NCBI RefSeq assembly: GCF_014466985.1
Contig: NZ_AP022826.1
Span: forward strand, 310,001-374,000
Source: Nitrosophilus labii
GTDB taxonomy: Bacteria > Campylobacterota > Campylobacteria > Campylobacterales > Nitratiruptoraceae
Reading direction: 5' to 3'
DNA length: 64,000 nucleotides
The translations under genes were made by a program, and so were the position numbers. The notes below the pieces were generated by a model. The model saw only the letters and a list, made by a program, of their open reading frames with translations. It had not been told where the DNA came from and did not search any database. Position 1 is the first letter of the stretch. Every line of letters starts with the position of its first letter. Below are positions 7,405 through 45,691 of the stretch, piece by piece.

Positions 7405-8760
7405 ATGAACGAAAATACAAATCAAAGCGAAACGACGACAAATTCAAACCAAAACGGACAATCTGCTCCAAAATCAAAAACAAGAACACATATACCGGTA
7501 GAGGGCTACACTATAGAAGAACTTAGAACAAAAACGCTTGACGAACTTATAGCGATTGCTACTCAACTTGGTATCGAAAACCCGCAAGAGTATAAAAGAC
7601 AAGATTTGATGTTTGAGATACTAAAGTCTCAAGTGAGCAAAGGCGGGTATATACTTTTTACGGGTATATTGGAAATAACTCCTGAGGGTTACGGATTTTT
7701 AAGAGGTATAAACGAAAACTTTTCAAATACTGCAAACGACGCTTATGTAAGCGCCACCCAGATCAGAAGATTTGCACTTAGAAACGGAGATGTTGTAACT
7801 GGACAAGTTAGACCTCCAAAAGATCAAGAGAGATACTACGCACTTTTAAAGATAGAAGCTATAAATTATCTTCCACCTGAAGAGAGTAAAAAAAGACCTC
7901 TTTTTGACAACTTAACCCCACTCTATCCAACTCAAAAAATAAAACTAGAATACGACCCAATGAAACTAACAGGAAGGGTTTTAGATCTCTTCACTCCTAT
8001 AGGAAAAGGTCAAAGAGCTCTTATAGTTGCACCTCCTAGAAGCGGTAAGACTGAGCTTATGAAAGAGTTGGCTCACGGGATAGCAAAAAATCACCCAGAA
8101 ATTGAACTTATCGTGTTGCTAGTTGATGAGAGGCCTGAAGAAGTTACTGATATGGAAAGAAGCGTAAAAGGAGAGGTTTACAGCTCAACTTTCGATATGC
8201 CAGCACGCAACCACGTTAGAGTAGCCGAACTGGTTATAGAAAAAGCAAAAAGAAGAGTTGAGATGGGCAAAGATGTGGTAATCTTGCTTGACTCTATAAC
8301 TAGACTAGCAAGAGCCTATAACACGGTGACTCCATCAAGCGGTAAAGTTTTAAGCGGCGGTGTTGACGCAAATGCTCTTCATAAACCAAAAAGATTTTTT
8401 GGTGCGGCCAGGAACATAGAAGAAGGCGGTAGCCTCACTATCATCTCTACTGCTCTTATCGATACTGGCTCAAGAATGGACGAAGTCATCTTTGAAGAGT
8501 TCAAAGGAACGGGTAACTGCGAAATAGTTCTTGATAGGAAGATAGCCGATAGGAGAATATATCCGGCCATAGACATACTGAAATCTGGTACAAGAAAAGA
8601 GGAACTTCTCCTTGATCCTAACACTTTACCTAAAGTTTGGGCTCTAAGAAACGCTATGCAGCAAATGGACGAAGTTGAAGCATTGAAGTTTTTATACTCT
8701 AAGATGCTAAAAACGAAAAACAATGAAGAGTTTTTAAGTATTATGAATGAAGGAGCATGA
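7405..8760 (+). CDS. rho: Transcription termination factor Rho
   Basis: Hexameric RNA-dependent ATPase that ends transcription. At 451 residues it is slightly longer than the roughly 420 of E. coli because of a low-complexity Asn/Gln/Thr/Ser-rich tail of about 30 residues. The Rho N domain ([18 protein letters not shown]) is followed by the RNA-binding cold-shock-like fold with GYGFLRG, then the ATPase with Walker A APPRSGKT at 209-216 and Walker B ending at Asp296 in [14 protein letters not shown] good ribosome binding site precedes the ATG. Confidence 0.97.
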
Positions 8761-43966: not shown

Positions 43967-43972
43967 TATAAT
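43967..43972 (+). promoter_or_regulatory. Putative -10 element of the leuA leader transcript
   Basis: TATAAT lies directly after the pssA stop codon and 30 bp before the leader ORF at 44002. It gives leuA its own transcript with a roughly 160-nt leader. Confidence 0.45.
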
Positions 43973-44001
43973 AATGGAAAAAAATTATTAAGGGAAAATA
44001 A

Positions 44002-44079
44002 ATGAGTGATGCAGGTGTTGTTAAGGCTATCAAAATTCTTCCTAAAATAGAGATTAAAAACCTTCTCCTGCGCTTCTGA
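44002..44079 (+). CDS. Candidate leucine leader peptide (25 codons) upstream of leuA
   Basis: MSDAGVVKAIKILPKIEIKN is followed by Leu-Leu-Leu-Arg-Phe and a TGA. The three consecutive leucine codons are CTT, CTC and CTG, then CGC; CTC, CTG and CGC are uncommon in this AT-rich sequence. AGGGAAA lies ahead of the ATG. The gene fills the otherwise empty 171-bp gap between pssA and leuA. This suits a ribosome-mediated attenuator, but no strong terminator is visible: TGATA-GATTT-TATCA overlapping the stop (44077-44091) is weak, with a T6 run at 44115-44120. A truncated gene remnant is the alternative. Confidence 0.45.
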   Translation: MSDAGVVKAIKILPKIEIKNLLLRF

Positions 44080-44137
44080 TAGATTTTATCAACAGATATA
44101 TAATAATCAAAACATTTTTTAATTTAAAGGATAGAAA

Positions 44138-45691
44138 ATGAGCGATATAGTAAAAATTTTCGATACAACTTTAAGAGATGGTGAACAAAGTCCCGGAGCA
44201 TCTATGAATACAGAAGAGAAGATACAGATAGCAAAACAGCTAGAAAAGCTTGGAGTAGATATCATAGAAGCAGGTTTTGCAGCGGCAAGTCCGGGAGATT
44301 TTGAAGCTATAAATAGAATAAGTGAAATTGTAAAAAAAAGTACCGTATGTTCTTTAGCGAGAGCAGTTGAAAAAGATATTAAAGCAGCAGGGGAAGCTAT
44401 AAAACCGGCAAAAAAGAAAAGAATACACACTTTTATCGCTACAAGCGATATTCATATGAAATATAAGCTTAGAATGAGTCCTGATGAAGTTGTAAAAAGA
44501 GCAATCGAGGCAATTAAATTTGCTAAAGAGTTTGCGAATGATATAGAATTTAGTTGTGAAGATGCAGGTAGAAGTGAGATGAGTTTTTTAAAAGAGATAA
44601 TAGATGAGGCTATAAAGGCAGGTGCTAAAACTATAAATATACCGGATACCGTTGGTTATAGATTGCCTCACGAGATGGGTGAGATGATTAAAGAGTTAAA
44701 AGAGTTTATTGGTGATAGAGCCATAATTTCCGTTCATTGCCATAACGATTTGGGACTTGCTACTGCAAACTCTTTATATAGTGTTTTAAACGGGGCAAGA
44801 CAGGTTGAGTGTACTATAAATGGACTTGGCGAACGAGCAGGTAATGCGGCTTTGGAAGAGGTTGTGATGGCCATTAAGACTAGAAAGGATATCTTTGAAG
44901 GTATTGAAACAAATATCAATACAAAAGAGATTTATCCTACTAGCCGTTTAGTTTCTACAATAACAGGTATTGAGCCTCAACCAAATAAAGCGATTGTTGG
45001 AAGAAATGCTTTTGCTCATGAAAGCGGCATCCATCAAGATGGGGTATTGAAACATAAAGAGACTTATGAGATAATGAGAGCCGAAGATATAGGATTTGAG
45101 ACAAATTCTATAGTTTTAGGTAAACATTCAGGACGCCACGCTTTTAAAGAAAAAATCAAATCTTTAGGCTTTGATTTAAGTAATGATGAGATTAATAAAG
45201 CTTTTGAGAGATTTAAGATCTTAGCAGATAGAAAAAAAGAGATAACTGACGATGATTTAAGGATGATAATAACTAGCGAATTAACTAGCATACCGGAAAT
45301 TTATAAACTTAAAAAGTTACAGATAAATGATTGTAGTGAAGGGGTTCCTAGTGCCGCCGTAACAATAGAGCATAATGGAAAAGAGATAACTGATGCCGGT
45401 ATTGGCGACGGCACTATTGACGCTATATTTAAAACTATAGATAGAATAAGTGGTTATAGCGGAACATTAAACGATTATGAAGTAAAAGCTGTAAGTAAAG
45501 GAAAAGATGCTTTAGCTAAAGTCGTAGTCAAAGTCGTATTTGATGAAAACAAACCTGCGGTTATTGGTCATGGCTTAAGTATAGATACCATGATGGCAAG
45601 CGCCAAAGCCTATATAGGAGCTTTAAACAGCTTTATTTCTATGAGAGATATTTTAAAGAAAAAAAGTTGCGTTGAAGGAGATGATATATAG
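44138..45691 (+). CDS. leuA: 2-isopropylmalate synthase
   Basis: First committed enzyme of leucine synthesis, 517 residues. The N-terminal TIM barrel has [17 protein letters not shown], the metal HxH in [16 protein letters not shown], and [17 protein letters not shown]; from about residue 385 a leucine-binding regulatory domain gives feedback control. AAAGGA precedes the ATG. It is followed by a strong terminator and preceded by a candidate leader peptide. Confidence 0.96.

Follow-up and report, generated by a model that had tools for sequence, protein, structure and literature searches.

The 25-codon open reading frame (ORF) that lies directly before leuA in Nitrosophilus labii is a real leucine leader, and one of a kind that is already known (LeuL), an identification well supported by its conservation, position and codon choice. 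In our preferred reading, to which we give a probability of roughly 0.6, this LeuL-type leader gene senses charged leucine tRNA and controls leuA, in that a leucine-starved ribosome would stall on the leader and leuA would then be expressed, probably by the blocking of Rho.

The leader locus and its occurrence before leuA

The preliminary description had pointed to a 25-codon ORF with its own Shine–Dalgarno (SD) site, an upstream TATAAT and the codons CTT CTC CTG near the stop, and all of these are present in the window, i.e. the whole stretch of 64,000 nucleotides that was analysed (Table 1). In the window leader the three Leu codons are followed by CGC TTC TGA (two codons and then the stop), with 58 nt between the leader stop and leuA. 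CTT is the commonest Leu codon in window ORFs of at least 250 codons (29.7%); CTC and CTG, at 5.5 and 4.2% of the Leu codons in these ORFs, are both rare, as had been proposed. A scan of the leader region against Rfam returned chance matches only, and neither Pfam nor NCBIfam gave a family for the leader peptide.

Table 1. Features of the leuA leader locus in the window
Feature	Position	Strand	Basis or remark
-10 box TATAAT of the leader promoter	43967..43972	+	sequence; promoter scan
Conserved 18-bp block ATAATGGAAAAAAATTAT between the -10 box and the leader SD	43971..43988	+	
Leader Shine–Dalgarno AAGGG	43990..43994	+	sequence; AAGGA at the aligned site in relatives
Leader ORF, LeuL type, 25 codons plus stop	44002..44079	+	encodes MSDAGVVKAIKILPKIEIKNLLLRF
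Codons of the conserved peptide core KILPKIEIKN	44032..44061	+	
Leu codons CTT CTC CTG	44062..44070	+	proposed stall site
Untranslated gap lacking an intrinsic terminator	44080..44126	+	holds a second TATAAT (44099-44104)
leuA Shine–Dalgarno AAGGA	44127..44131	+	sequence
leuA, 2-isopropylmalate synthase	44138..45691	+	proposed controlled gene

Homologues of the leader were gathered by DNA and protein searches of relatives and, separately, by a survey that worked outward from leuA. The leader is present as a single copy in its own genome. Across the order, some 95 distinct loci from six families carry it ahead of leuA: besides the window's family, some genomes of which bear the title Nitratiruptor, the same peptide was found immediately 5' of leuA in Hydrogenimonas, Sulfurospirillum, the Campylobacter concisus group and two more families. 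A single genomic copy together with the same peptide before leuA in six families argues that the ORF is more than a chance one. We also looked for a longer homologue, of which the ORF might be a fragment, and found none, the weak matches inside long ORFs being at chance level. In addition, the survey from leuA showed that, within the order, numerous leuA genes are preceded by a leader of some kind whose peptide carries a Leu run at its C-terminus, and that the LPKIEIKN core is absent from such leaders in several families (f6, f9, f13, f14 and others).

The leader has nevertheless been lost from three of the five sampled genomes of the window's own genus (G001, G003 and G004), in which the promoter is kept; in G003 a deletion has removed nearly the whole leader, up to the leuA SD. 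The expectation of conservation among relatives is thus borne out across families and fails for these three congeners. A TATAAT stands 5' of 18 of the 21 leaders in the window's group, compared with 1.2 expected, and a second such box lies between leader and leuA in the window, where it might give leuA a leader-independent promoter; 6 of the 21 gaps of the group hold such a box (1.8 expected). These losses, the box in the gap and the disappearance of leader SD pairing from the window's family (see below) would fit a decaying leader, one that is disappearing while leuA is transcribed mostly from a separate promoter inside the gap; we regard this as very unlikely, as the window and its nearest relative have kept every part intact, from promoter and SD to ORF, core and Leu run.

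The 18-bp block ATAATGGAAAAAAATTAT is found as an exact copy once per genome, at leuA, in G000, G002, G004, G007, G009 and G018, and is therefore retained in a congener (G004) that has lost the leader. A near copy occurs in the leuA promoter of a genome from another family (G033) and, reversed, in the leuA promoters of L240-L243. This block may be an operator.

Some loci depart from the common arrangement. Three of them (L039, L093 and L072) carry 156 to 285 nt extra between leader and leuA, where most relatives have about 40-80 nt. In family f6, the leader–leuA gaps of L214, L215, L216 and L219 share a segment flanked by GGGTA and AATT, which is preceded by CCC in most and is GGGTAAAATTAGACAATT-like. 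In one Campylobacter genus (L299-L316) a leuA match was found in only 17 of 49 genomes, about 49% identical to that of the window, and several of these matches carry a different leader, which suggests that leuA was replaced together with its leader.

Selection on the peptide core

A conserved peptide core, KxLPKIEIKN, which the preliminary description had not noticed, sits just ahead of the Leu run. In 84 distinct core leaders the core codons (x omitted) gave a pS of 0.82 and a pN of 0.03, i.e. a pN/pS of 0.039, compared with a pN/pS of 0.375 for the four codons ahead of the core; most leaders were collected, and all of those counted were selected, through the core itself, which lowers pN, whereas the high pS is independent of that selection. 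The invariant Leu-Leu of the same leaders had a pS of only 0.35. Codon choice in 79 leaders shows how the two elements differ: the core Leu is TTA or TTG in 63, and all four Pro codons and all three Ile codons occur in the core, whereas the first codon of the Leu pair is CTC in 60 of 79 and the second CTG or CTA in 78 of 79. Selection thus acts on the core at the level of amino acids and on the Leu pair at that of nucleotides.

The spacing of the two is equally strict, since exactly one residue separates the core Asn from Leu-Leu in 98 of 98 core leaders, which have 11 to 17 residues before the core and 4 to 12 after it. At the sequence level the leaders thus share with nascent-chain arrest leaders a set of residues just ahead of the proposed stall codons that is conserved as amino acids and in fixed register. 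With a ribosome paused on the Leu codons, the core would lie in the upper exit tunnel, and the pattern is that expected of a nascent-chain effect and not of a mere codon counter; the growing peptide may itself contribute to leucine sensing by the ribosome. Not every leucine leader can depend on the core, since several families have the Leu run and lack it.

The strong amino-acid selection on the core, and the fact that the peptide always adjoins leuA, might also be expected of a small protein that acts on its own, e.g. on LeuA, and whose gene merely adjoins leuA. This appears unlikely to us, given that the Leu pair is constrained in its nucleotides and uses rare codons, that the core keeps a fixed register to Leu-Leu, that the C-terminus varies in both length and sequence, and that related families have a Leu run with no core.

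Pairing of the Leu codons and readout behind the leader

The CUCCU of the Leu codons is complementary to AGGAG, and we therefore compared native duplexes between SD sites and Leu codons with swapped ones. For the leader's own SD and the Leu end the native duplexes were the stronger, at -11.1 compared with -10.1 kcal/mol, with 0 of 5000 permutations as low. The signal was clearest in leaders lacking the core (-11.3 native compared with -9.6 kcal/mol swapped), in which, taking about one per genus, the longest SD:Leu helix was 8.0 pairs compared with 6.95 when swapped (p 0.0008). Some leaders have altered and yet complementary flanks of SD and Leu codons, namely AGGAGGATAGA/TCTATCCTCCT, AGGATAGAAGA/TCTTCTATCCT and AGGAGTGTAC/GTACACTTCT, and codon resampling pointed the same way for the Hydrogenimonas-like group and the Sulfurospirillum-like group. 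Among core leaders from other families than the window's the stem could form, with no significant covariation, and within the window's family it is weak and gave no signal by duplex energies, codon resampling or helix length. We thus consider the stem a property of the wider leader family and do not claim it for the window.

The same complementarity extends to leuA, where UCCU of the Leu codons could pair with AGGA of the SD, so that a stalled ribosome would free the leuA SD and control would be translational, as has been suggested for the Actinobacterial LEU element, which is built on such pairing (PMC1262725). We consider this improbable here, since native pairing with the leuA SD was no stronger than swapped (-5.06 compared with -5.29 kcal/mol) and several families have AAGGT before leuA. 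Two further pairings of the Leu codons were rejected for the window's group: that with the opening codons of the leader (in the window, GCAGG with CCTGC) was no better than swapped, and that with the downstream gap was likewise unsupported, a marginal signal being seen in the Campylobacter-type group only.

The preliminary description had judged the downstream hairpins to be weak, and our data agree with this, as the fold of the window leader RNA is no more stable than those of shuffled versions (z +0.81) and a terminator scan found no terminator-like site in the window. Terminator-like hairpins are also absent from the window's group and the Hydrogenimonas-like group, and none in the Sulfurospirillum-like group reaches -6 kcal/mol. 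They are present in a few leaders lacking the core and in the Campylobacter concisus group, where the last Leu codons form a short hairpin, GCTAC-NNNN-GTAGC, at the leader stop; leaders with this hairpin are L057, L064, L066, L177, L261, L262, L265 and L267. As a hairpin occurs in that group and none in the window, the readout may differ between lineages. Classical attenuation, in which a stalled ribosome decides whether the RNA forms an antiterminator or an intrinsic terminator hairpin, would fit these hairpins at the ORF end and was proposed for C. jejuni LeuL, the RNA of which ends shortly behind the leader stop (PMC3847290). For the window it seems to us a poor candidate, since the fold is no better than that of shuffles and neither the window nor its group shows a terminator-like hairpin.

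The base composition behind the leader stop points elsewhere. Across 114 leaders we counted 824 C and 223 G after the stop (C/G 3.7), compared with 443 C and 446 G in 68 control gaps (C/G 1.0); C exceeds G in 90% of the leader gaps and in 43% of the controls, with a p-value of 7e-17 that is inflated by related genomes. Some leader gaps are free of G, e.g. that of L088, CCCCACACTCTACCTCACCAACCAACAACCACTCCACCTA, whereas the bias in the window's own gap is weak, at only 4 C and 2 G. Rho is encoded in the same genome and indeed inside the window, by an open frame of 478 codons with its RNA-binding domain at about 7660-7881. Gaps that are rich in C and poor in G across the family, together with the lack of an intrinsic terminator, favour a Rho-type readout for the leader family. 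Of the earlier suggestion that the readout could be translational or via Rho, the part that dispensed with an intrinsic terminator fits, Rho gains from the composition of the family (more weakly in the window itself), and the translational part is not supported by the pairing with the leuA SD.

Relation to known leaders and proposed mechanism

The enterobacterial leu leader is a classical attenuator in which successive Leu codons stand in a leader ORF ahead of leuA. The window leader resembles it in this arrangement, with rare codons in its Leu run, but differs in that no terminator or antiterminator was found, in having a conserved core and in placing the Leu codons at the end of the ORF. E. 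coli tnaC is a Rho-dependent leader that works through its nascent chain, and a stall site near the stop, a Rho-type readout and conserved nascent residues would be plausible for the window leader also; the signal, in contrast, would be a lack of charged Leu-tRNA at the Leu codons. The Actinobacterial LEU element has a leader ORF with a Leu run before leuA, the Leu codons of which pair with the leuA SD (PMC1262725). Its Leu codons thus double as an anti-SD, as do those of the present leader family, but other families of this phylum pair them with the leader's own SD, and the window's family does so detectably with neither.

The closest relative is LeuL itself. The preliminary description held that no leucine leader had been described in Campylobacterota, which proves incorrect: LeuL was named in C. 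jejuni by Porcelli et al. 2013 (PMC3847290), with orthologues predicted in most Epsilonproteobacteria, and Ribo-seq has since shown translation initiation at C. jejuni LeuL (PMC11955535). The window ORF agrees with LeuL in its length (within 20-35 amino acids), its SD, its several Leu residues near the C-terminus and its place directly before leuA, and one of the Campylobacter-genus leaders that we sampled has 28 amino acids and five Leu residues, as described for C. jejuni. The sampled Campylobacter-genus leaders differ from the window type, however, in ending in FNLLLQLSL or similar with no KxLPKIEIKN core, in showing no strong SD pairing and in preceding a leuA that is only about 49% identical to that of the window. 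This divergence of both leader and leuA may be why searches with LeuL miss the core type; a tBLASTn search found LeuL mainly in Campylobacter (PMC11955535). Compared with the known LeuL, the selection on and register of the core, the SD pairing in relatives and the probable Rho readout are new points. In the open-access literature we found no description of the core selection and register, of nucleotide-constrained Leu codons that pair with an SD, or of a gap rich in C, poor in G and devoid of a terminator; the core may already be visible in the alignments of the 2013 LeuL paper.

From these comparisons we infer a response to leucine that works by stalling and Rho, with a role for the core. 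RNA polymerase would start at the promoter at 43967 and a ribosome would load on the leader. With leucine plentiful, the ribosome would pass the Leu codons, reach the stop and leave, exposing the unstructured RNA behind it, and transcription would end before leuA, most likely by Rho. With leucine scarce, it would park on the rare CTC-CTG by the stop and cover the stretch of the gap, and transcription would run on into leuA; KxLPKIEIKN would then occupy the nascent-chain segment closest to the peptidyl transferase centre and would probably aid the pausing. In other families, where the Leu codons pair with the leader SD, the ribosome held there would also keep the leader open for more ribosomes, whereas the window's family would work with no such stem. 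Counting against this reading are the three of five congeners with no leader, the C/G count of 4 to 2 in the window and the possible second promoter in the gap. More tentatively, and as a possibility we would not put first, the nascent peptide may be part of the sensor, the core tuning the stalling from within the tunnel, while in many relatives the anti-SD Leu codons would close the leader's ribosome-binding site each time a ribosome has passed; to keep the leader accessible, and Rho off leuA, would then require a ribosome that stalls.

Amino-acid attenuators are taught as codon counters in which the peptide is irrelevant. A near-invariant peptide, precisely positioned relative to the hungry codons, would connect attenuation with arrest peptides, and covariation of the Leu codons with the SD of their own leader suggests a leader that closes itself. 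Such a leader element would explain the control of leuA in a phylum that includes both vent bacteria and animal-associated species.
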